This document shows positions 4,438 to 62,711 of a stretch of DNA of 64,000 bases, piece after piece. The translations under genes were made by a program, and so were the position numbers. The notes under the pieces were generated by a model, which was not told the DNA's origin, did no database searches, and saw only the letters and a list, made by a program, of their open reading frames with translations. Position 1 is the stretch's first letter. Every line of letters begins with the position of its first letter. This DNA comes from Heliomicrobium modesticaldum Ice1. Its GTDB lineage: Bacteria > Bacillota > Desulfitobacteriia > Heliobacteriales > Heliobacteriaceae. Where the stretch lies: positions 475,501 to 539,500 of the forward strand of contig NC_010337.2 in NCBI RefSeq assembly GCF_000019165.1, read 5' to 3'.

Positions 4438-4506
4438 AGCCAGTTGGATATCCTTCCGGCCCTGAGGGAAAATCGTTCGCAATAAAACGGTTAATTCTGA
4501 CATTTT

Positions 4507-36479: not shown

Positions 36480-37826
36480 TTAAGGGCCGCTGATGGCCAT
36501 TTCTTTGACGCGCAGCGTCGGCGCACCCTTGCCGATGAAGAAGGTCAGGTCGCTGCCGACGCCGTCGATCCCTTGCAGCCAGTCGAGAAGGTTGCCGGCG
36601 AGGGCGACGCCCCGGACCGGACGTGTCAGCCGCCCCTGCTCGATCAGGAGCCCGGCGGCGCCGACGGAAAAATCGCCCGAGATGGGGTTCGCCGTGTGCA
36701 TGCCCATCACCTCGGTCACATAAAAACCGGATTCGATCTGGCCGATCAGCTCGCCGGGCGCGCAGTTTCCGGCTTGCAGATAAAAGTTGGTCGTCCCCAC
36801 CTCCGGCGTCCCCCGGAAGGAGCCTCGTGAGCCGTTGCCTGTTGACACCGCCCCTGCTTTGGCGGCCGTATAGGTGTTGTGCAGATAGCCCGCCAGGGTC
36901 CCCTTGTCGATCAGCACCGTCCGCGACGTGGGCACGCCTTCGCCGTCAAAGGGGGCCGAGAGGATCCGCCCTTCCATGCGGCCGTCGTCGATGACGGTCA
37001 CCTCCGGGGCGGCGATGGGCTGTCCCTCTTTCCCGGCGAAGAGCGACTTGCCTTTTTGGACGGCCTCCGCCGTCAGCGACGGCGCCAGGATGGCGAGGAA
37101 CTGAGTGGCCACGTAAGGGTCAAAGACGACAGGAGCGCGCCGAGACGATACGGGCTTCGCGCCGAGCATGCGCAAGGCCTTTTCTGCCGCCTCGCGTCCG
37201 ATCTGCTCCGGATCGATGCCGTCAAAGCTTAAGCCGTAAGAGAGGGAAAAGCCGGTCTGGCTCTCACCGTTCTCCTCGGCCACCAGGTAGGCATAGCCGC
37301 CGCAGTAGGCCCCCCGGCAGGCCACATCGACGCCCTGAGAATTGATGATCGTCACCGTATACTCGGTATCGGTGTAGCTGGAACGCTCGATGATTTTTAT
37401 CCGTCCATCGACAGCCTTTGCCGCCGCCTCGATCGCTTTGGCCAGTTCGATCTTCTGTTCCACCGAGACCACGGCCAGAGAGGGGTCATAGGTCTTCACG
37501 TCGGGATACCGATCCGCTTTGCCCGGCAGGCCCCGGAAGCGATCCTCGGCGTTCCAGCGGGCGTTGGCCAGCGCCCTGTCCACAGTCTCCTCTAGCGCCT
37601 TTTCCGAAAGGTCGGACGTATAGGAATAACCCATTTTGCCGCCCTGAAAAAGGCGGATGCCGATGCCGCGATCCTCGGCCAGCTTCATCGTTTCCACGAT
37701 GCCTTTGGAGACATCGATGGAAAGCTCCTTAGCGTCAAGGCCGTAGGCCTCGGACAGGTTCGCGCCCTTCGCCTGCGCCCGTTCGACCATCCGGCGGGCC
37801 AGTTCCCGCATCGCAAGGTGGCTCAC
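36480..37826 (-). CDS. pmbA: PmbA/TldE family protein (TldD partner)
   Basis: A 448-residue protein of the TldD/PmbA fold with family segments such as YGLDAKELSIDVSKG, GIGIRLFQGGKMGYSYTSDLS and NGSRGSFRGTPEVGTTNFY. Unlike TldD it lacks a HExxxH zinc motif, as expected for TldE/PmbA. The pair forms a metalloprotease heterodimer that trims peptides in E. coli. The GTG at 37826, with AGGAGG about seven bases upstream, is preferred over the longer frame. Adjacent to tldD. Confidence 0.93.
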   Translation of the reverse strand: MSHLAMRELARRMVERAQAKGANLSEAYGLDAKELSIDVSKGIVETMKLAEDRGIGIRLFQGGKMGYSYTSDLSEKALEETVDRALANARWNAEDRFRGLPGKADRYPDVKTYDPSLAVVSVEQKIELAKAIEAAAKAVDGRIKIIERSSYTDTEYTVTIINSQGVDVACRGAYCGGYAYLVAEENGESQTGFSLSYGLSFDGIDPEQIGREAAEKALRMLGAKPVSSRRAPVVFDPYVATQFLAILAPSLTAEAVQKGKSLFAGKEGQPIAAPEVTVIDDGRMEGRILSAPFDGEGVPTSRTVLIDKGTLAGYLHNTYTAAKAGAVSTGNGSRGSFRGTPEVGTTNFYLQAGNCAPGELIGQIESGFYVTEVMGMHTANPISGDFSVGAAGLLIEQGRLTRPVRGVALAGNLLDWLQGIDGVGSDLTFFIGKGAPTLRVKEMAISGP

Positions 37827-38024
37827 CGCCACACCTCCTGTTGTCAGTTTGCCCGCGCCGGCAAATCCGCTTGCTATCCCGGCGAAATTACCGGCCCTAC
37901 ACTGTTCATCCTGCAACCGTCCGGCACTATCGGGGTTTTATGGACCTGCGATCCGATAAACCTTGCCGGTTGAGGGCAAAAAAGCCACACCCGCAGAACG
38001 GGCATGGCCCAATGTCTATGGGTG

Positions 38025-39569
38025 TCACAGACGCCGGATCCGGCCGGCGTGGTTGTTCAGCAGGTCAAAGGCAGACAGGCGGCGCAGTCCGCCGCCGACG
38101 CCGCCGCCCGCGCCTGTGCCGGCGCCGCCTCTACCGCCTGGCGCCGCCTGCCCGTCCTCTTCATCGCCGCGCTCCGCCGCGCCGGTTCCTCCCACGATCA
38201 GGGAGGTGATGCGCAGCGTCGGCTGGGCGTCTGACACCGGCGCACCCTGACCGTCTTTGCCACAGGTGCCGATGGCGTAGCCGAGGTCGTTGCCGACGCG
38301 GTCGATCTGCCGCAGCACCTCAGGGCCGTTGCCGGTCAAAGTGGCGCCGCGCACCGCCGCGCCGATCTCGCCGTTTTCGATCAGATAGCCTTCGGCCACA
38401 TCGAAGACGAAGTCGCCGTTGGTCGTATTCACCTGGCCGCCACCCATCTTCTTGACAAAAAGACCCCGCTTCGTGTCCCTGATGATCTTTTCCGGGATCT
38501 CGTCGCCTGAGGCGATGAGGGTATTCGTCATGCGCGGAAGAGGCTTATGCTGGTAAGACTCGCGCCGACCGTTGCCGGTGGAGGGTCGCTTCTCCTTTCC
38601 GGCGGTGAAGCGGTCGTGCATAAATCCCTTGAGGATGCCCTTTTCGATCAGGACGTTCTTCTGCCCCGGCGTCCCTTCGTCGTCAAAGCGGAGGGTGCCG
38701 TACTTGCCGGCGATGGTGCCGTCATCGACGACCGTCACCAGCGGTGACGCTACCTGCTGTCCTTCCTTGCCGGCGTAGACGGAGAGGCCTTTCTGGGCTA
38801 AGTCGGCCTCCAAGCCGTGGCCGCAGGCCTCATGGACCATAGTGCCGCCGGCGGCGCTGGACATGACGACAGGCATCTTGCCCGATGGCGCCGGCTTGGC
38901 CGTCAGCATCAAAAGCGCCCGATCGACGGCTGCTTGGGCCAGTGACTCCGGATCGCGCTCCTGAAAGATCTCAAAGCCCTTCGTCCCACCCAGGGCCTCA
39001 TAGCCTGTCTGGATGACGGCGCCGTCCGCCGCCACAGCGTGGACGACGAAGCGCGTGCGGATCCGCTCATCTTCGATATAATCGCCCTCCGAGTTGGCGA
39101 TGGTCACCTCCTGGACCACATCGCCGTACCCGACGGTCACCTGTTTGATCCGGTCGTCGATGTTGCGGGCATGGCGATTGGCCCGCAGCACCTGTTCCAC
39201 CTTGTCCTCAAGGGCCACCTCGTCGGGACGCGATTCAATGACCATCTGCACCGGCGACGACCGCTTCGTCAGGTCGATGGGACGAGAGGCTGCGCCGCCG
39301 CGAGCGGCGTGGCTGGCCACCTGGGCCGCATGGCCCAGTCCCTCTAGACTGAGGTCGTTCGTGTAGGCATAGGCCGTCGACTCCCCGGCGATGACGCGGA
39401 TGCCGGCACCGATATCGATCCCCGAGTGGATCCGCTCGATCTTGTTGTCATCACAGCCGATCCCGTTGACCGACTTCTTCTCGATGAAGATATCAGCAAA
39501 ATCAGCGCCCTGGCGCAGCGCGATCTGAAGCACATCCCGCAGATCGTCGACAGCAGGTCGATGCAGCAA
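38025..39569 (-). CDS. tldD: TldD zinc metalloprotease with a Gly-rich C-terminal tail
   Basis: A 514-residue protein. The catalytic HEACGHGLEAD lies near residue 248 and the family segments YAGKEGQQVASPLVTVVDDGT and FDDEGTPGQKNVLI follow. TldD normally ends near the LIVGGTG motif; here about 51 more residues follow, half Gly/Ala, then a basic end. The TTG at 39569, with GGAGGGGG upstream, gives the usual N-terminus; earlier codons are Arg-rich and overlap comFB. Substrate is unknown; no microcin-like gene is obvious. Confidence 0.92.
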   Translation of the reverse strand: MLHRPAVDDLRDVLQIALRQGADFADIFIEKKSVNGIGCDDNKIERIHSGIDIGAGIRVIAGESTAYAYTNDLSLEGLGHAAQVASHAARGGAASRPIDLTKRSSPVQMVIESRPDEVALEDKVEQVLRANRHARNIDDRIKQVTVGYGDVVQEVTIANSEGDYIEDERIRTRFVVHAVAADGAVIQTGYEALGGTKGFEIFQERDPESLAQAAVDRALLMLTAKPAPSGKMPVVMSSAAGGTMVHEACGHGLEADLAQKGLSVYAGKEGQQVASPLVTVVDDGTIAGKYGTLRFDDEGTPGQKNVLIEKGILKGFMHDRFTAGKEKRPSTGNGRRESYQHKPLPRMTNTLIASGDEIPEKIIRDTKRGLFVKKMGGGQVNTTNGDFVFDVAEGYLIENGEIGAAVRGATLTGNGPEVLRQIDRVGNDLGYAIGTCGKDGQGAPVSDAQPTLRITSLIVGGTGAAERGDEEDGQAAPGGRGGAGTGAGGGVGGGLRRLSAFDLLNNHAGRIRRL

Positions 39570-39588
39570 CGGGCTCCCCCTCCAGTCC

Positions 39589-39897
39589 TTATTTGTCGCT
39601 ATCTGCCTTAGCAGGTTCCGCCGCCTCCTCCGGTCTCGCATGGCGGGGGTTTTTGGCGACGAGCATCATGCCATGGGCGATGGCGCCGATGATATCGACA
39701 TGAAACTGGTTGGCCAGCAGATTGATCTTCGAATAGACTTCCCCTTTGTCGGTGACCACATACCGCGGCGGGAGACGGTTCAGCGCTGCGGCCATGATAT
39801 CCATGCGACATTGGCTGCAACGGCAGACTTCCGGGTGCTGTGTCAACAGATCGTCTAAAAAGTTTGCGACGACGCCCTCCATGAGATTGTGGATCAT
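39589..39897 (-). CDS. ComFB family protein, possible cyclic-dinucleotide receptor
   Basis: A 102-residue protein matching ComFB: MEGVVANFLDDLL, the CRCSQCRMDIMAAALNRLPPRYV cysteine-rich core and SKINLLANQF. Bacillus comFB lies in a competence operon. Cyanobacterial ComFB/CdgR proteins have been reported to bind cyclic di-GMP or cyclic di-AMP. It follows a pseudopilus operon by 86 bases and precedes tldD by 19. The location suggests a link to the filament system, but ligand and partner are inferred. Confidence 0.85.
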   Translation of the reverse strand: MIHNLMEGVVANFLDDLLTQHPEVCRCSQCRMDIMAAALNRLPPRYVVTDKGEVYSKINLLANQFHVDIIGAIAHGMMLVAKNPRHARPEEAAEPAKADSDK

Positions 39898-39983
39898 CCT
39901 GAACCCTCCTCCGGTCGCGCCGGAAATGTATGGCCTTTCAGCGCGAAGACGCCTCCCAATGCCCGCCGGCGCGTCCTCGACTG

Positions 39984-40580
39984 CTACGGAACAACGCCGC
40001 GAGGTACAACTATGGTAGAGAGTTCGACGAAGGAATGAGAGTTCCTCCTGTGACCAGCCTGCTTTACCATAACTTGAATGGGTGACTCGCCCGAACCGGC
40101 AGGCGCCGCCAGCCTTGTGACATGCAGACCTTCGATGCCGGAAGCGAGCGGTTTCGTGTCAGCCCCTTCCCGCCGCTGGACGGTGCCCGCCTCCAGGGTG
40201 TACCGAACATCGACCCAGGTCAAGAGGCCGCTGTTTTCGACCAGTACCTGACAGTCGACGCGGGTGCCGCCGTTGTAAATGCGGATATCACGCCCATACC
40301 GCAGATCCTTGGCCATCCAGGCTAAGACCCAGCGGACGCCGCTGTTCCCCTCCATACGGTGACTTTCCACATCGACGATGGCCATGCCCGTATTGAGCAA
40401 CCGCAAGCCCATCAGGAGCAGGATGCCTGCGATGGTCATGGCCAGCAAGACCTCGATGAGGGTCATGCCGGATGAGCCCTCCCCTTTGCGCCGACGCTTC
40501 ACTGCCGCCTCCGGGCAAAGCGGCTTTTTCATTGTCAGCATCGCAATCTTCCTTAACAAAACGCCCCTATCTTGATTCAT
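39984..40580 (-). CDS. Minor pilin-like protein (PilW/GspJ type), cluster 2
   Basis: A 198-residue protein. The prepilin site is SSG/MTLIEVLLAMTIAGILLL, with Gly before the cut and Glu at +5. A long, basic leader (up to 38 residues) precedes it, unless one of two in-frame ATGs 13-16 codons later is used. The first ATG overlaps the previous stop as TGATG. The C-terminal domain is beta-rich, like PilW/GspJ. Last gene of the second pilus operon. Confidence 0.82.
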   Translation of the reverse strand: MNQDRGVLLRKIAMLTMKKPLCPEAAVKRRRKGEGSSGMTLIEVLLAMTIAGILLLMGLRLLNTGMAIVDVESHRMEGNSGVRWVLAWMAKDLRYGRDIRIYNGGTRVDCQVLVENSGLLTWVDVRYTLEAGTVQRREGADTKPLASGIEGLHVTRLAAPAGSGESPIQVMVKQAGHRRNSHSFVELSTIVVPRGVVP

Positions 40581-41104
40581 CAGGAGACTTCGCCGCTCGG
40601 CGGCGGCATTGAATCGATGCGCACACGCCCGTTCCGGGACACGATCACATAGCGGTTGCGTCCATTGCTCCCCTGCAACATGACCGTCCCTCCCATGCCG
40701 GGCATGCCGGCCCTCCCATCGGTGGCGAAAATAAAGGTGTTCCGATACATGTTCGAAGTCACGTTAAAGCTGGTTGTTTTGACAACGACCCCTCCCGGCA
40801 GTGTCCGGCTTTCGCTTTTCCGTTCATCGTCACTATAGGTGATGCGGTAGTTGGGACTTTCAATGACGAAGACCAGCGCTACATTCCGTTGTTCCAGCAC
40901 CGCCTTGTCCCTGGCAGACAGGAGGTCCGTCTGCACCTGACGCGCTGCCGCTTCCAGCGATAACTGCCCGTACCAGCGGCTCAAAAAGGGGCCGCTCGCC
41001 AGCAAAAGGCTGCCGAGCAAGACGAGGACAAGGCAGACCTCAACGAGCGTATATCCGCGCATCGTCCCGACGGCGGCCATCCCGCGCTGAATCGGCACTC
41101 CCAT
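40580..41104 (-). CDS. Minor pilin-like protein (GspH/FimT type), cluster 2
   Basis: A 174-residue protein with the prepilin site RG/YTLVEVCLVLVLLGSLLLA and a GspH-like helix (ARQVQTDLLSARDKAVLEQRNVAL, split over the domain start). The second half contains a Gly/Met-rich turn (GRAGMPGMGG). It is translationally coupled to the downstream PilW-like gene. Confidence 0.84.
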   Translation of the reverse strand: MGVPIQRGMAAVGTMRGYTLVEVCLVLVLLGSLLLASGPFLSRWYGQLSLEAAARQVQTDLLSARDKAVLEQRNVALVFVIESPNYRITYSDDERKSESRTLPGGVVVKTTSFNVTSNMYRNTFIFATDGRAGMPGMGGTVMLQGSNGRNRYVIVSRNGRVRIDSMPPPSGEVS

Positions 41105-41152
41105 CGGCCCCCCTTATCTCATCCCACTTATGTACAAAGCGCTCCCCTACGG

Positions 41153-41656
41153 TCAGCGGGCAGAGACGCTTCTCAACAGGGATCGCTCCACCGAGGATAC
41201 CTGCCATAGGCCGGCCTCCCTTTTCTCCATCCCCAAGCGGGCCAACATGGCGAAACGACCGCCGTCTCCCTCAGCAGATGCGATCACATCGAGAGAGAAC
41301 GGCTTGCCTGTCACCGTCCGGTACGTCAACCGCACCTTGCTCTCACCCAGGGAAAAGCCGGGGAGCCTGGCGGCAAGGTGGCTTGCCAGCGACGCCGCCT
41401 CCGGCGGGCTTTCCCAATCGGGTCGGCGCTTTAGCCAGTCCTCTGCCGCGGCCAGGGCTGCTTCGATGCCCGACTCAGCGCTGTAGAGAAGCTGTTCAGC
41501 CCGCGCCTGCGTGCGGACTGATGACCAGGTGTAATTTCCCATGGCCGTGACCGTCGCCGCCATCGTCGCCAATGCGGCGATGATGAAAAACAGGTAGAGC
41601 AACCCAGCGCCTACCTCGCCTCGTCCGGCAGAGCGACCAGCATGGCCAGGGCGCAC
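41153..41656 (-). CDS. PilX/GspK-like membrane-anchored protein, cluster 2
   Basis: A protein of up to 167 residues with one N-terminal membrane helix (LLYLFFIIAALATMAATV) followed by YSAESGIEAALAAAEDWL, the helix pattern of PilX/GspK-type minor pilins. There is no Glu at +5, as in GspK. The start is uncertain: GTG at 41656 overlaps the upstream gene by 46 bases, and TTG at 41602 (GAGGT upstream) would begin right at the helix. Confidence 0.7.
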   Translation of the reverse strand: MRPGHAGRSAGRGEVGAGLLYLFFIIAALATMAATVTAMGNYTWSSVRTQARAEQLLYSAESGIEAALAAAEDWLKRRPDWESPPEAASLASHLAARLPGFSLGESKVRLTYRTVTGKPFSLDVIASAEGDGGRFAMLARLGMEKREAGLWQVSSVERSLLRSVSAR

Positions 41657-42090
41657 TTCGACCCTGCCGCCGAGGGCGTCTCCGCTGCAGATATCTCCGA
41701 TGGCGCCGTCTCGGCGCCGCCGCCGGCCTCGACCGGTCGGGCATTCGCCTGGTCCCATACGATCACTGACACCTCCTTCAAGGGCAACCCCGCCGGATCT
41801 GCGGCGTCTTGCACCGTCACTTGGCAGCGAAAACCATCCGGTATGGCGACTCCCGCAGGGAGGCGGCTGTCCGCCTGACCGGGATCAGCTTTCATCGCAG
41901 TGCCTTTCAATTCCATTACCTGCCGAGCCAGCGTCAGCATCTGGGCAAAGCGTTCGCTCCGGCGCTCCAATCGTTCCGCCACAACCATCACGCTGTAGAG
42001 GGGAAGGGCTGTCAAAGCCAACAGCAGCAAGGCGATCAGCACCTCCGTCAAGATGCTGCCCTGTTCCCCCCTGCTCAACCGATTGCTCAC
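41611..42090 (-). CDS. Minor pilin-like protein (PilV/GspI type), cluster 2
   Basis: A 159-residue protein with prepilin site EQG/SILTEVLIALLLLALTAL, Glu at +5, then a helix (FAQMLTLARQVMELKGTAM) and a small beta domain. The tail is Ala/Glu-rich. It overlaps the PilO-like gene by 4 bases. Confidence 0.84.
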   Translation of the reverse strand: MSNRLSRGEQGSILTEVLIALLLLALTALPLYSVMVVAERLERRSERFAQMLTLARQVMELKGTAMKADPGQADSRLPAGVAIPDGFRCQVTVQDAADPAGLPLKEVSVIVWDQANARPVEAGGGAETAPSEISAAETPSAAGSKCALAMLVALPDEAR

Positions 42091-42839
42091 GGTTCATCTT
42101 CTCCCCTCTTTGCCGGTTGGATCGCCTCTTGCCAGGGGACGTTGGCCCCAGCCCCTTCACGCTGACCGTCCACCGAGAAAAAGACCAGCCTCAGTCCCGC
42201 CAGCATCGCCGATGTCGACCTTTCTGCCGCAACCGTCTTATCACCGGCAGAGCCGGCGCTGTCTGTTCTGATCGTCTCCCTCAACCGCTGCAACAAGGCC
42301 GACGCCTCTGTCCAGCGGAGGTTGGTCAACAACCCGTCCCGATCGGCCGTAGCTTGCCCATCCTGTCGGAGCCAAACAAAGGCCTGCACATAAAAGGCGG
42401 ATGCTCTTTTTCCCAATTGGTCTAAAAACTCTCGCAGATCCCCCTCATCTCCTTCGAGAACAATCGTGAACACGCCCTTGCGCAGCCGGCCCTCTGCGGC
42501 GGGATGATCGCCGATGACACGCCGAAGTTTCACCCCTGTTGCCTCGGCCGCCTCGGCGATGGCCGTCACCTGTTTTGCGCCATCAGAACAGGCGGACAGC
42601 GCTCGGAGAGACTCGGCCTCAGGCGCATCGGCTTGGCCTGGCTCCGCCTGATGCCTTCGAAGCTGTTCCGTCATCGCCTGAGCCGAACGAAGGCGCTCTG
42701 CATGCAGACGGTATTGCTGCCAAAGGGGCTCAAAAAAGAGCCTGTACGCGAAGGCAGCAAACAGCGTCAGCGCCGCTATAAGGAAGAGCGCCTGCTCACG
42801 CCGGGTTCTTCGTTCCAACCAGTCAAGGAGCCCCTCCAT
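42087..42839 (-). CDS. PilO/GspM-like assembly protein, cluster 2
   Basis: A 250-residue protein with a short cytoplasmic start, one membrane helix (ALFLIAALTLFAAFAYRLFF, 16-35), a coiled coil and a ferredoxin-like C-terminal half with GVFTIVLEGDEGDLREFLDQL. This is the PilO/GspM plan. It overlaps the PilN-like gene by 17 bases. Confidence 0.78.
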   Translation of the reverse strand: MEGLLDWLERRTRREQALFLIAALTLFAAFAYRLFFEPLWQQYRLHAERLRSAQAMTEQLRRHQAEPGQADAPEAESLRALSACSDGAKQVTAIAEAAEATGVKLRRVIGDHPAAEGRLRKGVFTIVLEGDEGDLREFLDQLGKRASAFYVQAFVWLRQDGQATADRDGLLTNLRWTEASALLQRLRETIRTDSAGSAGDKTVAAERSTSAMLAGLRLVFFSVDGQREGAGANVPWQEAIQPAKRGEDEP

Positions 42840-43422
42840 CGTTCAGGCCTCCTTTTCCCGCCTTGCCCGCTTCAGATAAGCGCTCCCATTGGGAGGGCGA
42901 GATTTTCCCGGGCAACCGGCAGTACAATCGGAACGTAACGGCACCATCCTCCTCATACGTCCCGTCCAGCAAGGAGACTTCCGAAAAACCGGCTGTTCCC
43001 TTGAGCTTATCCATGAAATCGCCGACTGCACACAGCCTGCTGCCGCTCCCCTCCAAAAGCAAGGCGTCGCCTTCCATCATGATCGCAGTCAGGCGCAGCG
43101 GCCCTTCCGACAATGCGTCGTCGAGATCTCGCAGGCGTTCCGACCAACGGGGAGACTCCCTCAGCAAGGCTGTCAAAAATGACTCTTCTTGCCTGTTGCG
43201 CTTTTTTTCCTGTTCCTGTGCCTGCCGGCTTGCCAGCTGGCCGGCCTCTGTTTCAACAATCTCCGCTCGCTCAACCAGGCGACTCATCTGCCTTTCCGCG
43301 CCGGCATAGAGGAGCACAGCCGCAAGCGAACATAGGACCAGCGAAAGGGCCAGTCGCCGGAGCACCCCTCTTCCTTTTGCCCGCAGCGGACTCGGCAGCA
43401 GGTTGATCTCGGCCACTGCCAA
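42823..43422 (-). CDS. PilN/GspL-like assembly protein, cluster 2
   Basis: A 199-residue protein beginning with the PilN hallmark EINLLPSPLRAK, then a membrane helix (LALSLVLCSLAAVLLYAG), a coiled coil and a small globular domain (LLEGSGSRLCAVGDFMDKLK). In type IV pili INLLP binds PilM, yet no PilM gene is in this operon, so it may borrow the PilM of cluster 1 or work without it. Confidence 0.82.
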   Translation of the reverse strand: MAVAEINLLPSPLRAKGRGVLRRLALSLVLCSLAAVLLYAGAERQMSRLVERAEIVETEAGQLASRQAQEQEKKRNRQEESFLTALLRESPRWSERLRDLDDALSEGPLRLTAIMMEGDALLLEGSGSRLCAVGDFMDKLKGTAGFSEVSLLDGTYEEDGAVTFRLYCRLPGKISPSQWERLSEAGKAGKGGLNDGGAP

Positions 43423-43437
43423 CCCCTCCCCTGCCCG

Positions 43438-43893
43438 CTAAAACCCGGATTGTGTGACGACCAGCTTGCCATCGGCAATCGCGAAAGTCACCGACAAATC
43501 GTCGCCTCCGGGAAGACGGTTCGGCCCGTAGGATACCATCCGCGCCGTCGCAGGCATTGCCCCGACGTTCTTCGGTTCATACTGGTAAGCGCTCCCCCAA
43601 GGATCCTTCCAGATATTCAGGCCGGTCGGCGCGACTGCAGCCAAGTCTTTGTCGAGCAGGTTGGCGTACTGCAAGTCCGCCGCCGACGGAAGTTTCCCCT
43701 GATCGATGAAATAGTGGCGAACTGCCATTTCGAGGGCGCGAAAGTCATTATGGACTGACGACAGCTTGGCTTTTTCGGGCGCTGCCGACAACCTGGGCGC
43801 GAACAAAAAGAGCATCAGACCGATGAGCGTCACCACAAGCATCACCTCCACCAGCGTAAATCCCATTTCCCCCCGTCGAAACTGCCGGCCCAT
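43438..43893 (-). CDS. Major pseudopilin-like protein (GspG type), cluster 2
   Basis: A 151-residue protein with prepilin site EMG/FTLVEVMLVVTLIGLMLFLF and the GspG-type motif WKDPWGSAYQYEP. The latter resembles the calcium-binding loop region of major pseudopilins. The leader is only 10 residues. It lies between pilC- and pilN-like genes. Confidence 0.88.
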   Translation of the reverse strand: MGRQFRRGEMGFTLVEVMLVVTLIGLMLFLFAPRLSAAPEKAKLSSVHNDFRALEMAVRHYFIDQGKLPSAADLQYANLLDKDLAAVAPTGLNIWKDPWGSAYQYEPKNVGAMPATARMVSYGPNRLPGGDDLSVTFAIADGKLVVTQSGF

Positions 43894-43917
43894 CTCCGCT
43901 CCCCCTTTCCCGGTCTG

Positions 43918-45144
43918 TTACGGCGTTCCGTTGATCATCTCGAACAGCGGCATGAGCAGGGAAAGGGCCAAGAACCCGACGACCCCTGCCATCAGAAAGA
44001 GCAGCATCGGTTCCAACAGGATCATCAACCGATGGACAGCGCCGTCCACCTCCGCCTCGAAATATTCCGCCGTTTTCTCTAAAAGAACATCCAGCGCTCC
44101 GCTTTCCTCGCCGATGTAGACGAGATGGACGAACTCCGGCGGGAACAAGGGTGAGCGCTCCATCATTTGGTGCAGGGGATGTCCTTTGCCGACGCCGCTG
44201 CGCACCCCCCGCACCGCTTCCGCCAGACTGCGGTAAAGAGCCACCTTTTCCACGATCGCCAGCGCTTGGATAATGGGAACGCCGCTTCCGACCAGAATGC
44301 TCAGGCTTCTGCTGACCCGGGCGATGGCGGCACGGTGGAGCAAGCCGCCAAGGACAGGTGCTCGCAAGAGCGCCTTCTCCAGTAAAATTCGATAGCCACC
44401 CTTTTGCATCAGACGCCGTAACCCAAAGAAGCCCAGCGCCGCCGACAGCATCATCCAGAGGCCATAGTCACCGATCCACTTCGCCAGCGCCAACACAAAG
44501 CGGGTGATCTCGGGCAACCCCATCCCCAGGCTCGTCAGCAAGGCCGAATAAGCGGGAATGACATAGAGGAAAAAAAAGACCGTCGATCCGCCTGCCGTTG
44601 CCAGGACCAGCGCGGGGTAGAGCAAGGCCGCTCGGATCTTTCGCGTTATGGCAGATTCCTTATCATAGTGATCGGCCAGCCGATGGAGGCTTTGGTCCAG
44701 AACCCCGCCCGCCTCTCCCGTTTCCACGAGGCGGACAAAGAGCTCAGGAAAGACATGGCGCTGTTGCTCCAAGGCGCTGATCAGCGTTTCCCCCTGCGAC
44801 AGAGCCAAGGCCACCTGTTGCGCCGCCCTTTGGAGCGCCGGCGGCCTCAGTCGCCGCGCCACCATAGACAAGCTCGTGCACATAGGGATGCCGGCGTCCA
44901 CTAAAGCCGCCAGTTGCCGACAAAAGCCCGACAACTGGCGGGCATCCACCGGCCGCCGCCAAGGCAGCGAACCGTGCAAGCGGATATCGGGCAGTCGCCG
45001 AGGCTGGTCCTTCCTCCGGAGGTCGACAACGTAGCGGCCGAGCTGCTGCAACGTCCGGGCTGCCGCTTTTTCGGACGAGGCTTGCAACAGTCCTTCCTCG
45101 GCCTTGCCGCTGCGATCGCGCGCTTTATAGGCGAAGACAGGCAT
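43918..45144 (-). CDS. PilC/GspF-like platform protein, cluster 2
   Basis: A 408-residue inner-membrane platform protein with two repeated GspF domains, each with FCRQLAALVDAGIPM-like and LVGSGVPIIQALAIVE-like signatures, and three membrane helices. It begins MPVFAYKARDRSGK, as usual for the family. It is three bases after the ATPase gene. Confidence 0.94.
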   Translation of the reverse strand: MPVFAYKARDRSGKAEEGLLQASSEKAAARTLQQLGRYVVDLRRKDQPRRLPDIRLHGSLPWRRPVDARQLSGFCRQLAALVDAGIPMCTSLSMVARRLRPPALQRAAQQVALALSQGETLISALEQQRHVFPELFVRLVETGEAGGVLDQSLHRLADHYDKESAITRKIRAALLYPALVLATAGGSTVFFFLYVIPAYSALLTSLGMGLPEITRFVLALAKWIGDYGLWMMLSAALGFFGLRRLMQKGGYRILLEKALLRAPVLGGLLHRAAIARVSRSLSILVGSGVPIIQALAIVEKVALYRSLAEAVRGVRSGVGKGHPLHQMMERSPLFPPEFVHLVYIGEESGALDVLLEKTAEYFEAEVDGAVHRLMILLEPMLLFLMAGVVGFLALSLLMPLFEMINGTP

Positions 45145-45147
45145 GGC

Positions 45148-46458
45148 TTAGCCGTCCATCCGAAAGGCGACCCGCATGACTTCCTGCACCGTCGTCTCCC
45201 CTAAGATCGCTTTTGCCAGCCCATCAGCGACCAGTCCGATCATGCCTGCTTCGACCGCCTTCGCCCGGATGGCTTCGGTGCTGGCTTTCGCGATGATCAG
45301 TTCTCGCAAGCTCGAACGGACGACCATCACCTCATGGATGGCCAGTCGCCCGTCAAAACCTGTCTGGTTGCACCGGTTGCAGCCGGCGCCTCTGTAAAGG
45401 ATGTCTGTTTGCATCCCCGCCTTCTCCAGGAAGATCCGCTCCGGCGAGGACCGAGGCGGATGGTAGCTCGTCTTGCAAGAGCGGCAGATCCGCCGAACCA
45501 GCCGTTGGGCCACGATGCCGGAGACGGCGGAAGCCACGAGAAAGGGCTCCACCCCCATATCGATGAGCCGACCTGCCGCCTCGGCGGCATCGCCTGTATG
45601 CAACGTCGAAAAAACGAGATGGCCTGTCGTCGCCGCCTTGACGGCGATGTCGGCTGTTTCTTTGTCCCGAATCTCCCCGATCAGGATCACGTCAGGATCA
45701 TGGCGCAAAATCGCCCGCAACCCTTCCGTGAAATCGATGCCCGATTTGGCATTGACCTGCACCTGGTTGATGCCGCTCAGGATGTACTCCACCGGGTCTT
45801 CGATGGTGATGATGTTTTTTTCGGGGCTCTTGACGGCGTTCACCGCCGCGTACAAGGTCGTCGTCTTGCCGGCCCCCGTGGGTCCCGTCACCAGGATCAT
45901 GCCGTAGGCGTTGCCCATCAAGGCCTGAAAGGCTGCCAGGGCGTCCGGCAGAAATCCCAGTTGATCAAGGTTCAGCGGCGCCTGTTTCTTATCTAACATC
46001 CGGAGGGCGCATCTTTCGCCGAAAAGCGTCGGAAGCGTCGATACACGCAGGTCGATCTGCTTGTCCGGCATGGTGACCTGAATCCGGCCATCCTGTGCGA
46101 TCCGCCGCCGGGCGATGTCCATGCCGGCCAGGACCTTGATCCGAGAGACCACCTGCCCGTGCAGCCCTTTCGGCAACAGCTGCTCATCGCGAAGCAACCC
46201 GTCGACGCGAAAGCGCACCCGACTTTTCGTCTCCATCGGATCAATATGGATGTCTGTGGCCCGCTCCCGGGCCGCCCGCAGGATCATCTCCTCGACCAGT
46301 TCAACGACAGAAAGCTGACTCCATCCCTCGGTTGCATCATCCCGGTCGCCGAAGGCGCTATCAGGCCTTCGAGACGGTACGATGATGCCTTTTTCGCTCC
46401 CTGCCATAACCTGCCAGGGCTCACCATCACTCGGCTGGTTGCTGGGATTAAATGACAC
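45148..46458 (-). CDS. PilB/GspE-like assembly ATPase, short form, cluster 2
   Basis: A 436-residue secretion ATPase lacking the long N-terminal GspE-N/MshEN domain of the cluster 1 PilB. It has Walker A GPTGAGKTTTLYAAVN near 213, the Asp box, Walker B (DPDVILIGEIRD) and a zinc-binding pair of CxxC motifs (CRSCK, CNRCN). The short plan resembles ComGA of competence pili. The start is GTG with GAGGGGGAG upstream. It is the first gene of the second pilus operon. Confidence 0.93.
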   Translation of the reverse strand: MSFNPSNQPSDGEPWQVMAGSEKGIIVPSRRPDSAFGDRDDATEGWSQLSVVELVEEMILRAARERATDIHIDPMETKSRVRFRVDGLLRDEQLLPKGLHGQVVSRIKVLAGMDIARRRIAQDGRIQVTMPDKQIDLRVSTLPTLFGERCALRMLDKKQAPLNLDQLGFLPDALAAFQALMGNAYGMILVTGPTGAGKTTTLYAAVNAVKSPEKNIITIEDPVEYILSGINQVQVNAKSGIDFTEGLRAILRHDPDVILIGEIRDKETADIAVKAATTGHLVFSTLHTGDAAEAAGRLIDMGVEPFLVASAVSGIVAQRLVRRICRSCKTSYHPPRSSPERIFLEKAGMQTDILYRGAGCNRCNQTGFDGRLAIHEVMVVRSSLRELIIAKASTEAIRAKAVEAGMIGLVADGLAKAILGETTVQEVMRVAFRMDG

Positions 46459-46560
46459 TTTTTCTCCCCCTCGTCCGGTCCTTCCAAAGTCGCCTGTTTT
46501 CTCACCCCATTGTTTTCATTTCTATCTAAATTTGAAAAATCCTGTAATTTGTTTGAACGA

Positions 46561-46598
46561 AAAATAAAAGAATGCCTCGCTGAGACAGCAAAGCATTC
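46561..46598 (-). terminator. Terminator after pilM, separating the two pilus operons
   Basis: GAATGC and GCATTC arms (extended imperfectly) are followed on the minus strand by TTTTATTTTTC. It lies 54 bases beyond the pilM stop. Confidence 0.82.
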
Positions 46599-46651
46599 CC
46601 GATAAGAACATCTGTCGGCGAAGGTCGACTGCTTTCGCCAATTTTTAAAAC

Positions 46652-47776
46652 CTAATCCTCCTCGGCACTGCGCAAGGCCAGCCCGGTGACGACGGCCATG
46701 TCGGGCGTGAGCTGTTCGAGGCAAGCGGGCTTGATCTGAGCCACCAGGCTCGTCTGCATATCTACGACAGAGACAGGCAGCTTGAACTCCTGCGTGAAAT
46801 AGGCGTCGATCCCTCGCAACCGGGAGAGACCCCCGCAGAGCACGAGGTGGGAGAAGTTGTCGTCCCGGTATTGCAGGTTGTAAAAATCCAGGGAGCGACG
46901 GACTTCCACGATCAGATCGGCAAAGAAGGACTGCAGCAAAAACTGCATCTGGGCGGCCGCTCCGTAGGCCTCCGGGGCTTCCGCCACCGCCGTCTCTGTT
47001 ACGGCCGCCTCTTCTGCCGCCGGCGCCCCTTCGTAAGTCGCCGTCGCTTCGGTCGTGACAGCCGCCTCCGCCAGCCGCAGCCGGATCGTCTCGACAGGGA
47101 AGGTCTGCGCCAGGCTTTCCTCCAGCCGGGCCGCGCCCATCTGGATAAAGCGGATGAACTGCACCTTGCCTTCCCGAAACACAGTCAGCGTAGAACGATC
47201 ATAGCCCATATCCAGACAACCGTAGGTCCGGAGATCCTTTTCGCGCATCACATTGAGAAGCCGGCTGAGGGCGAAGGAGGATATCTCGACGGCGGTGACC
47301 GTCAATCCCACCCTTTTCAGACATGCATGATGCCGGAGGACCTCTTCCTTGGGCAGAGCCACCAAGAGCAGCTGGGCCATCCGGTCGCCTTCCACGTCGA
47401 TGACGCCCTGGTGGAGATAATCATAGACGTAATCATCGGCTGAAAGGGGGACATACTTCTCTAACTCCCAGCGCAGAGACGCTCGCATCTCATCATCCGG
47501 CATATGAGGCATGCGGATCTGGCGCGAGATCAGATGGCGCGACGGAAAGGCGAGCACTGCCCGCTTCGCTTTTTTTCGCAGACCGGCCAGGCATTTCTCG
47601 ATAGCGGCCTCCAGCGCCTGATAATAGGCGTCACTGTTGATTTCCCCTGCCGGTGGCGAAAAGGGTTGCTTCAAGGCAGCCACGATCGCAAAGCGCTGAT
47701 TGCGCCGAGATACCTCGACCATGCGCACCGCCGTGCTTGCGATCTCGACGCCCAGGGTGATGGTCGGTCCGAACAT
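46652..47776 (-). CDS. pilM: PilM-like actin-fold assembly protein, cluster 1
   Basis: A 374-residue ASKHA-fold protein. GVEIASTAVRMVEVSR is the N-terminal phosphate region, PHMPDDEMRASLRWELEKYVP a PilM hallmark, and CGGLSRLRGIDAYF the C-terminal segment. An Ala/Glu/Thr-rich insert (about 235-275) is unusual. It binds the INLLP tail of PilN at the membrane. The ATG at 47776 gives the family N-terminus. It comes after pilN-pilO rather than before, and a 207-bp gap precedes it in which I see no gene. Confidence 0.92.
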   Translation of the reverse strand: MFGPTITLGVEIASTAVRMVEVSRRNQRFAIVAALKQPFSPPAGEINSDAYYQALEAAIEKCLAGLRKKAKRAVLAFPSRHLISRQIRMPHMPDDEMRASLRWELEKYVPLSADDYVYDYLHQGVIDVEGDRMAQLLLVALPKEEVLRHHACLKRVGLTVTAVEISSFALSRLLNVMREKDLRTYGCLDMGYDRSTLTVFREGKVQFIRFIQMGAARLEESLAQTFPVETIRLRLAEAAVTTEATATYEGAPAAEEAAVTETAVAEAPEAYGAAAQMQFLLQSFFADLIVEVRRSLDFYNLQYRDDNFSHLVLCGGLSRLRGIDAYFTQEFKLPVSVVDMQTSLVAQIKPACLEQLTPDMAVVTGLALRSAEED

Positions 47777-47983
47777 CTTCCTCACCTGCTCTATTTCAAA
47801 GGGTGGATCATTCTCATTCCGCTGATGGTGCCCTGCCGGCGGCACGGGGATCTATCCGGTGGGATCGGCGGAAGGTCAGGTGCCGGCGCTGTGCGCCGCT
47901 TTCGGCTAGATGGTTGGCGCCGCGCGAGGAGGCTTTGGCAACAACGGCAGCCAGGGGGTCACCGGGATGGCACGGCGGGGACT

Positions 47984-49694: not shown

Positions 49695-50462
49695 CTAGCC
49701 TAGAAAATCACGGATCGCAGCAGCAGCGCTGCTTTCCAAGAGAAGATAGACGGTGAAATACCCGAAGGCCAGAAAAGGCCCGAAGGGTATCTGGCTCTTG
49801 CCCGTCCACCTGCCGGAGGCGATACCCGCCAGTCCGACCACACTGCCGCATAGGGCGGAGAGGGTGATGGCCCAGAGGGCGCCGGGCCAGCCGAGGAGCA
49901 GGCCGAAGACAAAGGCAAACTTGACGTCGCCCAGGCCGAGGCCGCCCTTGCTGAACCAGAAGACCGCGAATAAGAGGGCTGCGCCGAAGACGCCGCCGGC
50001 CAAACTATCCAGCAACAGGGCGAGACCGCCGTCCTGACCGGTCCAGACCTTCCCGGCCTGCCTGAGGGCGATGGCGACGAAGGCAGCGCCGAGCACCCTG
50101 TTGGGGATGATCTTGTGCTGCAGGTCGATGACGGCGATGACGATAAAAAAAGCGGCCATAAGGGCCGCTGCCGCCCAGGCGGCGGTAAGGCCGCCGTAAA
50201 GGGCGGCGAGCGCCGCAAAGGTCAGGGCGGTCCACCCTTCGACAAGGGGGTACTGAAGGGAGATCCCTTCCCCACATCCGCGGCATCGCCCCCGCTGGAG
50301 CAAAAAACTGAGCAGGGGGATCAGTTCGGCGGGCGACAAGGGCCGCCCGCAGGACACACAGCGGGAGCGTTTGTAGACGACAGACATCTGCCGCGGGATG
50401 CGGTAGATGCAGACGTTTAGGAAAGAGCCGATCAGTAAACCTAGAGATAAGGCGAAAAACAT
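49695..50462 (-). CDS. pilD: Prepilin leader peptidase/N-methyltransferase
   Basis: A 255-residue polytopic enzyme. It starts near FFALSLGLLIGSFLNVCIYRIP, has a four-Cys zinc site (CVSCG, CRGCG) and the two catalytic aspartates in AVIDLQHKIIPNR and GLGDVKFAF. It cuts prepilin leaders after Gly and methylates the new N-terminus. It is the only prepilin peptidase in the window and could serve all three pilin loci. The ATG at 50462 lies 10 bases past the pilin stop; its ribosome site is weak. Confidence 0.94.
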   Translation of the reverse strand: MFFALSLGLLIGSFLNVCIYRIPRQMSVVYKRSRCVSCGRPLSPAELIPLLSFLLQRGRCRGCGEGISLQYPLVEGWTALTFAALAALYGGLTAAWAAAALMAAFFIVIAVIDLQHKIIPNRVLGAAFVAIALRQAGKVWTGQDGGLALLLDSLAGGVFGAALLFAVFWFSKGGLGLGDVKFAFVFGLLLGWPGALWAITLSALCGSVVGLAGIASGRWTGKSQIPFGPFLAFGYFTVYLLLESSAAAAIRDFLG

Positions 50463-50472
50463 ATTCGATGCA

Positions 50473-50949
50473 TTAATCCAATCCTTTAGGAGTAACCACA
50501 GGAGAACCGGAGGAGAAGTCAATTTCTATGCCCATATCATCGTTTGCAATAGTGGTACCGTCTTCGGTATCATCTGCTTTATTTATCCCTGTAGAATAAA
50601 TTAATATAGTCTTATTGTTATTGACAGGCTTATATTTATATTTCCCTTTCCAAGGGTCATATACACTTGTCGGATCCGCATCAAGATATTTTGGGCCAGA
50701 CGACGGAGCCAACTTATCAGCTGTCGGAAGCTCACTCTTCTCAATATAATACTGCCGAACTGCCGTCTCAAAGGAGCGCATGTCGCTCTTGACACCGGCG
50801 ATCTTTGCCTTGTCGACCGAGTTCCCCAGACGGGGCACCAGGACGGCAAAAAGGATGCCGATGATGGATACGACGATCATCAGTTCGATCAGGGAAAAGC
50901 CCTTCTGTTCTTTCATCTTCTTGAATTTTTTCTGAAAATACCTAAGCAA
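50473..50949 (-). CDS. pilA: Major type IV pilin-like protein, cluster 1
   Basis: A 158-residue prepilin. The site is QKG/FSLIELMIVVSIIGILFAVL, with Glu at +5 and a 17-residue basic leader. The C-terminal half contains YDPWKGKYKYKP, similar to the GspG-type calcium-loop region. The TTG at 50949 (AAGGGGG eight bases upstream) is preferred to an ATG six codons earlier that has no ribosome site. The DNA for the C-terminal half is much richer in A and T than its surroundings, suggesting recombination or diversifying change of the exposed part. Confidence 0.88.
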   Translation of the reverse strand: MLRYFQKKFKKMKEQKGFSLIELMIVVSIIGILFAVLVPRLGNSVDKAKIAGVKSDMRSFETAVRQYYIEKSELPTADKLAPSSGPKYLDADPTSVYDPWKGKYKYKPVNNNKTILIYSTGINKADDTEDGTTIANDDMGIEIDFSSGSPVVTPKGLD

Positions 50950-52467: not shown

Positions 52468-53559
52468 TCAGTACATATCCATCATATACCGCATCAGCGC
52501 ATCGGGATCGGCGACCTTCTTCACCGCCTCCTCCCGCGACACGATCCCTTTGGTGACCAGGGTTTTGATAGCTGCGAACATGGTCTGCATGCCCAGCTTG
52601 CCGCCGGTCTGGATCGCCGTGGCGATCTGGTGGGTCTTTCCCTCCCGGATCAGGTTGCGGATGGCAGTCGTACAGACCATGATCTCCTGCGCGACGACGC
52701 GCCCTTTGCCGTCGGCGCGCGGCAACAGTTGCTGGCAGACGACCCCTTGCAGGACCGTAGCGAGCTGAATGCGGATCTGGGCCTGCTGTCCCACATCGAA
52801 GACATCGATGATCCGGTCGATGGTCTGGGCCACATCGTTCGTGTGCAAGGTGGCCATGACCAGATGGCCCGTCTCCGCTGCCGTGATGGCTGTGGCGATC
52901 GTCTCCAAGTCGCGCATCTCGCCGACAAGGATGACGTCAGGGTCTTCCCGCATGGCCGCCCGCAGCGCGCCGGCAAAGGAATGCGAGTCAATGCCGATCT
53001 CCCGCTGGTTGACGATGCTCTTGTTGTGGCGGTGTAGAAACTCGATGGGATCCTCCAGGGTGATGATATGCTCGGCCCGTTCTGTGTTGATCAGGTCGAT
53101 CATAGCGGCCAGGGTCGTCGACTTGCCGCTGCCGGTGGGTCCGGTGACCAGCACCAGGCCGTTGGGGCGGCGCGCCAAGGTGGCCAACACCTCAGGCAAG
53201 CCAAGTTCGTGAAAGGAAGGCGGCTTCAGCGGGATGATCCGCAGCACCATGGCGGAACTGCCTCGCTGGCGAAAGGCGTTGACACGAAAGCGCCCGATCG
53301 CAGGCACCGCATAGGAGAGGTCGACCTCTCCCTTCTGTTCAAAGCTGGCCAATTGCTTCTCGTTGAGCACCTGCCGCACCAAGGCGTCCGTATCGGGCGG
53401 CATGAGCGGACGCAGCCACGGGCTGTCGATGGGGACGCCCAATTCCTGCATCGGCATCAACTTGCCGTTGATCCGGAACAAGGGCGGTCGGCCGACTGTG
53501 ATATGCACGTCAGAGGCTCTTTTCTCCGTGGCGAGCATCAGGATATCATGGATCTGCAT
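52468..53559 (-). CDS. pilT: PilT-like retraction ATPase
   Basis: A 363-residue ATPase. Walker A GPTGSGKSTTLAAMID lies near 133, LEDPIEF is present, the Asp box and AIRNLIREGKTHQI (the AIRNLIRE motif of PilT) near 290. PilT powers pilus retraction and twitching. It sits between pilB and pilC. Confidence 0.96.
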   Translation of the reverse strand: MQIHDILMLATEKRASDVHITVGRPPLFRINGKLMPMQELGVPIDSPWLRPLMPPDTDALVRQVLNEKQLASFEQKGEVDLSYAVPAIGRFRVNAFRQRGSSAMVLRIIPLKPPSFHELGLPEVLATLARRPNGLVLVTGPTGSGKSTTLAAMIDLINTERAEHIITLEDPIEFLHRHNKSIVNQREIGIDSHSFAGALRAAMREDPDVILVGEMRDLETIATAITAAETGHLVMATLHTNDVAQTIDRIIDVFDVGQQAQIRIQLATVLQGVVCQQLLPRADGKGRVVAQEIMVCTTAIRNLIREGKTHQIATAIQTGGKLGMQTMFAAIKTLVTKGIVSREEAVKKVADPDALMRYMMDMY

Positions 53560-53576: not shown

Positions 53577-55289
53577 TTATTCGTTGACATCAGCCACGCG
53601 CAGGATCTCCTGTACGGTCGTCAGTCCCTGCAAGACCTTGCTCATGCCATCCTGACGGATGGGGATCATGCCATCGCAGATGGCCTGGGCGGTGATGGCG
53701 TCAGCAGAAGCCCGCTCCAGGATCAGCTTGCGCTGGGCCGCCGTGACCGTCAGCACCTCGTGAATGGCCAACCGTCCTTTGTAGCCTGTATGGTTGCAGG
53801 CGACACAGCCGCGCCCCCGAAAGAGGGTCAAGGGCGCATCATCGGCAACCCCCAGGTAGATCCGTTCCGGCGAGCCCCGTTCCGGCGTGTACGGCCGCTT
53901 GCAGTTGGCACAGACACGCCGCACCAGACGCTGCGCCACGACCCCGACGAGGGAAGAGGCCACCAAAAAGGGTTCGACCCCCATGTCGACGAGTCGGTTG
54001 ACAGAGCCGGCCGCATCATTGGTATGTAACGTAGAAAAGACGAGGTGACCGGTCGTCGCCGCCCGGACACCGATCTCGGCTGTTTCCCGGTCACGGATTT
54101 CCCCGACCAGGATGACGTCAGGATCCTGACGGAGGATCGAGCGAAGGCCGCTGGCGAAGTCAAGGCCGGCCCGCATGTTCACCTGCACCTGGTTGACGCC
54201 GTCCAGCACATACTCGACAGGGTCCTCGACGGTCACAATGTTTTTTTCCGGCGTGTTGAGCTCATGGATCGAGGCGTAGAGGGTGGTCGTTTTGCCCGAT
54301 CCGGTCGGTCCCGTGATGAGGATCATGCCATAGGGATTGCGGACAATCTTTTCATAAGCCCTGAGCACCTCATCTCGGAAACCGAGCTGGCGCAGATCGA
54401 AGCGCACGTTGCTCTTGTCCAAGAGACGGATGACGCATTTTTCGCCGTGGATGGCCGGCAGGGTGGATACGCGCATATCGATCATCTTGTCGCCCAGCTT
54501 CGTCTGGATTCGCCCGTCCTGGGGGAGCCGCTTTTCGGCGATGTTCATCTTCGCCAACAGCTTGATCCGGGACAGCAGTGCCGGATGAGCAGCCTTGGGC
54601 AGTGTGAGCACATGGCGGAGGATGCCGTCAGCGCGGTAACGGACCCGGACCCCTCCCTCCTGAGGTTCCAGGTGAATATCGCTGGCGCCTTCCTTGGCAG
54701 CCTGCTGCAGGATCGTGTTGACCACCCGGATGATGGGCGCGTCGCCGACAGCGGTCATCCGTTCCAGTTCTCCTAGGTCGATGATCGACCTTTCCTCCTC
54801 CGCACGGTTGGCCTCCACTTCCAACCGCTTGATGTCCGCCTCCTGTTCCTCATTCAATCCGTAGATCTTTTCGAAGACCTGTTCAAGCTCGTCTTCTGCT
54901 ACGATCGCCGCGTCGATCTCCAGGTTCGTCGTCATCTTGATGTCGTCCAAGGCGGGCAGGTTCAAAGGATCGACCATGGCCACCGTCAGTCGGTTGCCCG
55001 ATCGCTTCACCGGGAGGCACTTGTGCCGGCGGCAGAGGCTTTCCGGAAGCAGCTTGAACACCTCAGGGTGGAGCGGGTACTGAAGCAGTGATATCGTGGG
55101 AATCCCCAGCTGGAATTCCAACACCTCGTTGATCATCTGCCGGGTCACAAAGCCAAGACGGACAAGCGTCTGCCCCAGCCGTTCCCCCCTTTTTTTCTGC
55201 TCCGCTAACGCCTGCTGGAGTTGCTCGTCCGTAATGAGGTTGTACTCCAGTAAAAGATCTCCTAACTTCCGCCGATTGGTCGACGCCAT
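53577..55289 (-). CDS. pilB: PilB-like extension ATPase, long form, cluster 1
   Basis: A 570-residue ATPase. The N-terminal MshEN/GspE-N domain (KLGDLLLEYNLITDEQLQQAL onward, 1-~150) can bind cyclic di-GMP in some PilB/MshE proteins. Walker A GPTGSGKTTTLYASIH is near 327, with zinc motifs CANCK and CVACN near the C-terminus. The ATG at 55289 begins the family N-terminus; a GTG one codon earlier is possible. First gene of pilus operon 1. Confidence 0.95.
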   Translation of the reverse strand: MASTNRRKLGDLLLEYNLITDEQLQQALAEQKKRGERLGQTLVRLGFVTRQMINEVLEFQLGIPTISLLQYPLHPEVFKLLPESLCRRHKCLPVKRSGNRLTVAMVDPLNLPALDDIKMTTNLEIDAAIVAEDELEQVFEKIYGLNEEQEADIKRLEVEANRAEEERSIIDLGELERMTAVGDAPIIRVVNTILQQAAKEGASDIHLEPQEGGVRVRYRADGILRHVLTLPKAAHPALLSRIKLLAKMNIAEKRLPQDGRIQTKLGDKMIDMRVSTLPAIHGEKCVIRLLDKSNVRFDLRQLGFRDEVLRAYEKIVRNPYGMILITGPTGSGKTTTLYASIHELNTPEKNIVTVEDPVEYVLDGVNQVQVNMRAGLDFASGLRSILRQDPDVILVGEIRDRETAEIGVRAATTGHLVFSTLHTNDAAGSVNRLVDMGVEPFLVASSLVGVVAQRLVRRVCANCKRPYTPERGSPERIYLGVADDAPLTLFRGRGCVACNHTGYKGRLAIHEVLTVTAAQRKLILERASADAITAQAICDGMIPIRQDGMSKVLQGLTTVQEILRVADVNE

Positions 55290-55385
55290 CACTACCGCCC
55301 CCGCTTCCTCTGATGAGAACTTGGCTCTCCTCTGTAGAGAGACCCCCATGCCCGGAGGGCTCCGGACCATCGGAAGACCATGAAA

Positions 55386-62499: not shown

Positions 62500-62711
62500 C
62501 GTTGAGAAATCCCGTCAATCATCCCTTGAAAAACAGTCGTTTTGCTTCTTGACCACTACATATAGCGTTTCTTCGATTGTTTATTGTCTGGCATTGGTGG
62601 TCCTGGCCGAATGCAGGGGAACCACATTTCTGCGATCAGTGGGGTTTTTAGCTAAAAGGGCTATCTGCAGGGGCATCATTGCTGTCAAATCCGTTTTTTG
62701 AGGTGTATGAG

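Follow-up and report, generated by a model that had tools for sequence, protein, structure and literature searches.

The window, i.e. the whole 64-kb stretch of DNA analysed here, belongs to the genome of Heliomicrobium modesticaldum Ice1 (G000; 3,075,407 bases in a single contig) and contains two neighbouring sets of pilus genes. Set 1 consists of ordinary type IV pilus genes, and set 2 is a second pilus operon, which runs on the minus strand from 46458 to 39589 and ends with comFB. The question raised by this locus is what kind of machine set 2 encodes, and whether ComFB and the adjoining TldD and PmbA belong to it. The analysis indicates that pilB2-pilC2-gspG2-pilN2-pilO2-(I,X,H,J)-comFB probably serves this lineage as its SigH-controlled competence (DNA-uptake) pilus operon, of an unusual type that contains PilN and PilO. 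Gene content, a terminator, a promoter form common with comEC and the conservation of neighbours could be observed in favour of this reading.

Gene content and the machine it resembles

Set 2 follows pilM and begins with the short assembly ATPase PilB2 (45148–46458, minus strand like all pilus genes below unless stated; T2SSE, 1e-130). The platform protein PilC2 (43918–45144; T2SSF, 1e-56), the GspG/ComGC-like major pilin GspG2 (43438–43893; T2SSG, 6e-8), PilN2 (42823–43422; INLLP at residues 6–10, 22.0 bits with the PilN model, slightly below its cut-off of 22.8) and the PilO2/GspM-like protein (42087–42839; T2SSM, 9e-10) come next. Four minor-pilin-type proteins follow: the GspI/ComGE-like mI (41611–42090; weak model matches, a prepilin motif and orthologues), the K/X-like mX (41153–41758), the GspH/ComGD-like mH (40580–41104; GspH, 6e-9) and the GspJ-like mJ (39984–40580; prepilin motif and family models). 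The assignment of mX is based on a hydrophobic stretch and its place; its start codon is uncertain, it overlaps mI, and profile searches gave no Pfam or curated-model family, and its orthologues occupy the same place in G004, G001, G002, G007 and G008. The operon is closed by comFB (39589–39897; PF10719, 2e-26, 92 bits against a cut-off of 25). The open reading frames (ORFs) and family matches of set 2 are far beyond chance, and they bore out the gene list of an earlier, sequence-only reading, which comprised a short motor, a platform, a GspG-like pilin, PilN, PilO and minor subunits, followed by ComFB and then TldD/PmbA.

Set 1 extends from 55370 to 46652 and holds PilB1, PilT, PilC1, GspG1, PilD, PilN1, PilO1 and PilM. 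The same reading described an operon with no PilM, PilT or PilD, which is accurate between 39589 and 46458, but all three lie immediately upstream on the same strand. These are PilM (46652–47845; family match, neighbours and tree), the prepilin peptidase PilD (49695–50522), the sole one seen in the pilus region, and PilT (52468–53559). The claimed absence is misleading because the set 2 machine can share these upstream proteins.

Set 2 shares the plan of the competence pilus (ComM; comGA–GG of Bacillus and Listeria), i.e. a short ATPase, a platform, a ComGC-like major pilin and four minor subunits in a single operon with no secretin. Unlike ComM, it has PilN and PilO, adjoins PilM, which it probably borrows, has comFB as its last gene and scores under the curated Com cut-offs. 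It resembles Bacillota type IVa pilus operons, of which set 1 is one, in its PilN, PilO and GspG-like pilin, but it differs from them in lacking its own PilD, in a motor without the N-terminal MshEN domain and in its separate SigH-like promoter; the retraction ATPase PilT, which type IVa sets have of their own, was seen only in set 1. The best curated models for set 2 were GspE, GspF and GspG, and GspM and GspH-like models also scored well, as expected of type II secretion. However, no secretin (PF00263) was matched in the genome, as against 6/14 control genomes, so set 2 is no classical type II secretion system, and neither GspC nor GspL was seen among its genes with Pfam and the curated models.

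A SigH-like promoter common with comEC

The gap between pilM and pilB2 contained an intrinsic-terminator-like hairpin of 15 pairs with a T-rich tail (46568–46600, minus strand). A hairpin with a T run was present in this gap in 5/5 genomes, belonging to genera g1 (G000, G003, G004) and g2 (G001, G002), and its stem letters differ between the two. A SigH-like promoter, ACAGGATTT-N11-ATAGAAA (46519–46545, minus strand), was located 60 nt before the pilB2 start, with 15/16 matches to the published SigH consensus (PMC4754846); a simple sigma-70 scan gave nothing useful before pilB2. The aligned element, which comes after the hairpin, was ACAGGATTT-N11-(A/G)TAGAAA in g1 and AGAGGA(TTT/ATC)-N11-GTAGAAG in g2. 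Hairpin and promoter together mark set 2 as a transcription unit of its own.

ComEC was found, and SigH scored above the curated cut-off, in all nine genomes of the host family. Scanning the 3.5 kb upstream of comEC in these genomes revealed five matches of at least 15/16, all 47–48 bases before the ORF, and at a lower bar an AGG-N11/12-GAA element stood 19–21 nt before the ORF start in 9/9 comEC genes. A matrix built from the nine comEC sites ranked the five pilB2 starts 1, 2, 3, 4 and 8 among 146 gene starts with a gap of at least 60 nt. The reverse matrix from the five pilB2 sites ranked the comEC starts 1–7, 10 and 18 of 150. Since orthologues are not independent, these ranks are to be read as two genera agreeing and not as five trials. 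In Listeria, comG, comEABC and coiA are driven by SigH, so that its comG and comE are like set 2 in their SigH-type promoter (PMC4754846). The element common to pilB2 and comEC, which was observed at the sequence level, makes a DNA-uptake pilus the most likely product of set 2. The sequence-only reading had proposed a DNA-uptake or secretion filament; its first half gained from the promoter form, the terminator and ComEC in 9/9 genomes, and its second half lost ground, as no secretin was matched in the genome.

Alternatively, set 2 could form another type IV pilus or a pseudopilus whose role, in place of DNA uptake, is adhesion or the release of proteins through the monoderm envelope in the manner of type II secretion. 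The GspE, GspF and GspG models, PilN and PilO as in type IVa pili and type II secretion, and the SigH-like elements that also precede ordinary type IV pilus operons would all suit such a filament. Nevertheless, it appears unlikely in view of the promoter common with comEC in the same genomes, the missing secretin and the com-type cluster of genera g3 and g4, which is pared down to the ComG genes B-C-G-I-X-H-J.

Further SigH-like sites were noted elsewhere. One at window position 4456 on the minus strand is as strong as that of pilB2 (18.3 with the comEC matrix). In G006, a 277-amino-acid protein without a Pfam family (L050:6425–7258), divergent from a PilT gene, has a SigH-like site ranking 5 of 146. 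The best site of the wider set of ComFB loci, AAAGGATTT-N11-GTAGAAT, occurs in L175, where comFB has no nearby pilus genes.

Gene order, PilM and the two motors

The order set 1 – PilM – set 2 – ComFB – TldD – PmbA was common to G000, G003 and G004. Most of set 1 is missing here in G001 and G002, where the order is GspG – PilM – set 2 – ComFB – TldD – PmbA and PilM lies about 180 bases before the orthologous PilB2. G008, with one motor only, has PilB1-PilT-PilC1-GspG1-PilD-minor pilins-PilN1-PilO1, followed by I,X,H,J, ComFB, PilM and TldD. G005 shows PilB-PilC-GspG-I-x-H-J-TldD-PmbA without PilN, PilO and ComFB, and a full set 1 elsewhere. The comG-like gene set of G005 recurs at another genome site in G006 and G007; ComFB-TldD-PmbA is kept in G006 with no pilB beside it, and G007 has no ComFB. 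These varied orders indicate that every neighbour pair can come apart. Conservation of the neighbourhood from pilB2 over comFB to tldD, which the sequence-only reading had named as a check, is partial: pilus genes adjoin ComFB in 6/9 and TldD in 7/9 family genomes, the pairs are separable, and the TldD tie is weak in the phylum.

Each of G000, G003 and G004 has a single pilM in its pilus region. Phylogenetic analysis placed the PilM proteins of this cluster in one clade (100/98), separate from the PilMs that a different pilus operon of the family encodes, and PilM is probably shared by set 1 and set 2. The INLLP start of PilN2 (the motif name is our own reading, and no paper on it was found in the literature check) was present in 16/16 PilN proteins checked. 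In Thermus, residues 1–15 of PilN are bound by PilM, which also couples to the motor (PMC6325625). By analogy, PilN2 keeps a start expected to bind PilM.

The tandem position and the single PilM, PilD and PilT of the pilus region would also be in line with another reading, according to which set 2 is a duplicate whose PilB2 and partner proteins work as a second extension motor inside the one type IV pilus. A precedent is recorded in Acinetobacter baylyi, where one pilus system reportedly has two extension motors. Such an arrangement seems improbable for set 2, however, whose platform, major pilin, PilN, PilO, minor pilins, terminator and promoter are all its own, and which in G001 and G002 is accompanied by PilM while the remainder of set 1 is missing. 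In trees restricted to the family genomes and Negativicutes, PilC2 of g1 and g2 grouped with 100/98 and PilB2 with 84/75, but long branches meet and the placement relative to set 1 stayed loose, so that set 2 may or may not have arisen when set 1 was recently duplicated in tandem.

The two motors differ in their N-terminal parts. PilB1 (53577–55370; family models) has an MshE-type domain that scored 72 bits against a cut-off of 38 in the curated model and is listed as MshEN in Pfam, and its binding of cyclic di-GMP (c-di-GMP) is predicted from the family model. In PilB2, an MshE-type domain was listed by neither Pfam nor the curated models. The MshEN-type domain was detected in 13/13 set-1-type, other-operon and Negativicutes motors and in 0/8 com-type short motors, using a model built from full-length PilBs with several of the 13 matches in its seed.

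ComFB and the meaning of set 2

ComFB is a family named for competence. The AlphaFold model of the window ComFB (mean predicted local distance difference test score 79.6) matched 4wai (E 3e-4) and 8hja and nothing else confidently, and the run ALNRLPP.Y is common to it and 8hja. The protein keeps the dimer residues N4, E7, D33, N40 and Y46 and the CxCxxC run. ComFB of Bacillus subtilis is a zinc-binding dimer (PMC4381287), and three cysteines of its four-cysteine zinc site are kept (C25, C27, C30); unlike there, the fourth is absent, and no cysteine after residue 75 was seen in the window ComFB or in 5/5 other family sequences. A late cysteine occurred in 7/106 ComFB sequences elsewhere and is thus too rare to define the ComFB family. 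In cyanobacteria, ComFB binds both cyclic di-AMP (c-di-AMP) and c-di-GMP, and its loss leads to hyperpiliation and poor transformation and lowers both the pilM transcript and PilN; normal piliation, pilMNO expression and transformation depend there on ComFB and c-di-AMP (PMC12313861); the Anabaena homologue CdgR works via the CRP-family regulator DevH (PMC13075795). The window protein resembles these receptors in belonging to PF10719 and in a predicted fold closest to 4wai and the c-di-GMP complex 8hja, and differs from them as a short protein in a pilus operon. Two DAC and eight GGDEF matches, families that make cyclic dinucleotides, were found in the genome, which makes both nucleotides plausible. 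ComFB is, by this analogy, probably a cyclic-dinucleotide regulator or sensor of the set 2 pilus.

PF10719 was matched in 70/82 genomes of the class and 230/398 of the phylum. The phylum was surveyed through 80 loci, one per genus, chosen among the listed matches with the best Pfam scores first; a few listed genera were omitted. A locus was counted when pilus genes of two or more kinds lay no more than 8 kb from comFB and on its strand, opposite-strand matches (L133) being left uncounted. Gene calls were made with self-built hidden Markov models on greedily chosen ORFs, a procedure that can overlook individual small genes, as it did comFB of G003, which is known from a separate search. ComFB is a recurrent pilus-operon gene in the phylum: it occurred with pilus genes in 27/80 sampled genera and 17/52 families, a count that includes L161 and L172, both reduced to PilT and PilD, and it occupied several different places inside the operons. 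In 16/80 loci from 10 families, pilM lay directly downstream of comFB; in 13 of the 16, the two genes overlap or are no more than 37 bases apart. Among six related loci, all four from Negativicutes had ComFB in a pilus operon directly before pilM, and the other two had no pilus genes. The pilus tie of ComFB, which the sequence-only reading took from position in a single genome, is therefore the stronger for this survey.

Several loci of the survey and of the class search stood out in their own right. L161 and L172 carry reduced operons, PilT-PilD-ComFB-TldD-PmbA-AroQ, with no PilB or PilC in view, and in L172 a strong SigH-like site (19.9) belongs to the PilT start. In G072–G075, open frames of about 284–319 amino acids had two ComFB-domain matches each. 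A CRP-family regulator, assigned by Pfam in one case, lies 3' of comFB on the same strand in 10/20 class loci outside the family (L060, L062–L068, L073, L074), which recalls the action of CdgR through DevH in Anabaena.

The notion that ComFB generally takes the place of a lost MshEN domain was rejected as a rule, because most motors of pil operons with ComFB keep the N-terminal domain (18 phylum loci and three from Negativicutes with the motor in view). A short motor was paired with ComFB in the wider sample only in L128, L141 and L170, all of one family; ComFB may nevertheless have replaced MshEN within the host lineage. In these three genera, a full-length PilB-PilT-PilC operon lies a few kb beyond the short-motor operon with ComFB.

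The genes beyond comFB are, in order, tldD (38025–39641, minus strand; start uncertain, its ORF overlapping comFB), pmbA (36480–37916, minus strand), aroQ-pepP and efp; TldD and PmbA are family matches of doubtful membership, and the names AroQ, PepP, Efp and those of the aro/pyr genes were read off translations. TldD stood on the strand of ComFB in 5/80 sampled loci, and the unrelated aroQ, pepP and efp are at least as regularly beside the operon. The proposed link of TldD/PmbA to the pilus is thus weak, and the pair most likely consists of bystanders, old neighbours like aroQ, pepP and efp. Could ComFB be likewise a passenger of this old neighbourhood (aroB/aroK to aroQ-pepP-efp) with no tie to the pilus? 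The persistence of aroQ, pepP and efp beside the operon without a known tie is compatible with this, as are the 20 class loci outside the family that were examined (of 63 such genomes with a PF10719 match), none of which has comFB beside pilus genes, and the dispensability of comFB in B. subtilis (PMC4381287). The idea is a minority view but deserves weight; the varied places of ComFB inside pilus operons, its close spacing to pilM, the same adjacency in Negativicutes and the cyanobacterial phenotype, which falls on pilMNO and piliation (PMC12313861), speak against it.

Elsewhere in the window, a further small pilin cluster was located upstream of pyrF on the plus strand, opposite to set 2 (62110–63341), with a 129-amino-acid prepilin-motif protein and a 220-amino-acid PilX-like protein without a Pfam family. 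No riboswitch was matched by Rfam within the window at gathering scores.

Several observations weigh against a competence pilus. None of the five curated Com models passed its cut-off (ComGA 264/300, ComGB 117/240, ComGC 37/75, ComGD 43/70, ComGE 15/49), and the set 1 ATPase likewise remained under that of ComGA (272/300). PilMNOP is described as absent or very rare beside ComM genes in Denise 2019 (PMC6668835), and in Imam 2011, com operons are given only for Bacillales and Lactobacillales, with pil operons in Clostridia (PMC3244431). Shuffled gaps reached the pilB2 site score in 1.7–6% of cases in g1, the published consensus alone failed to single out the g2 site, and the comEC matrix placed the com-type motors of G005, G006 and G007 at 9, 17 and 62 of 146 and the full-length set 1 motor of G005 at 6. 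SigH-like elements also precede several full-length PilB operons of the wider loci and are not a mark of competence pili only. With the comEC matrix, a score of 12 or more was reached by 11/22 PilB starts of the wider ComFB loci, as against 66/674 other starts (Mann-Whitney p 5e-5). Control of a SigH-like kind may accordingly be a general feature of such pilus operons and not competence-specific. ComFB is missing in two family genomes and away from any pilB in one, and deletion of comFB in B. subtilis had no effect on transformation (PMC4381287). No transformation test of the host organism was found in the open literature, nor was any paper on the type IV pili of Heliobacterium modesticaldum, although "not reported" is provisional and covers open papers only. 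Heliobacteria were not mentioned among the matches listed for competence, nor was sigH among those listed for type IV pili, comEC and pilM; the cyanobacterial study (PMC12313861) was the only open paper found with both comFB and pilM.

If set 2 is the competence pilus, the short pilus and the ComEC channel would be made together when SigH is active, in transition or stationary phase. The set 2 prepilins would be processed by the PilD that the adjacent type IV pilus operon encodes, the single PilM would be recruited by PilN2 through its INLLP start, and assembly would be driven by PilB2 on PilC2, the pilus pulling or guiding DNA to ComEC. The zinc-site protein ComFB would be made along with the machine and probably reports the cyclic-dinucleotide level to it, either at PilM/PilN or via transcription.

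A more speculative extension, which we regard as rather doubtful, is that ComFB is across the Bacillota an operon-encoded cyclic-dinucleotide subunit of SigH-controlled pili that gates the motor via PilM. ComFB would here govern the MshEN-less competence motor, and the neighbouring type IV pilus motor would read c-di-GMP directly. If this is true, two adjacent pili sharing one PilM would be switchable by different means. The position of comFB before pilM, together with the SigH-like promoter common to comEC and the pilus operon, offers a concrete handle on whether cyclic dinucleotides control DNA uptake in monoderms. Furthermore, a competence operon containing PilN and PilO would call into question the view that monoderm competence pili lack a PilMNO platform.

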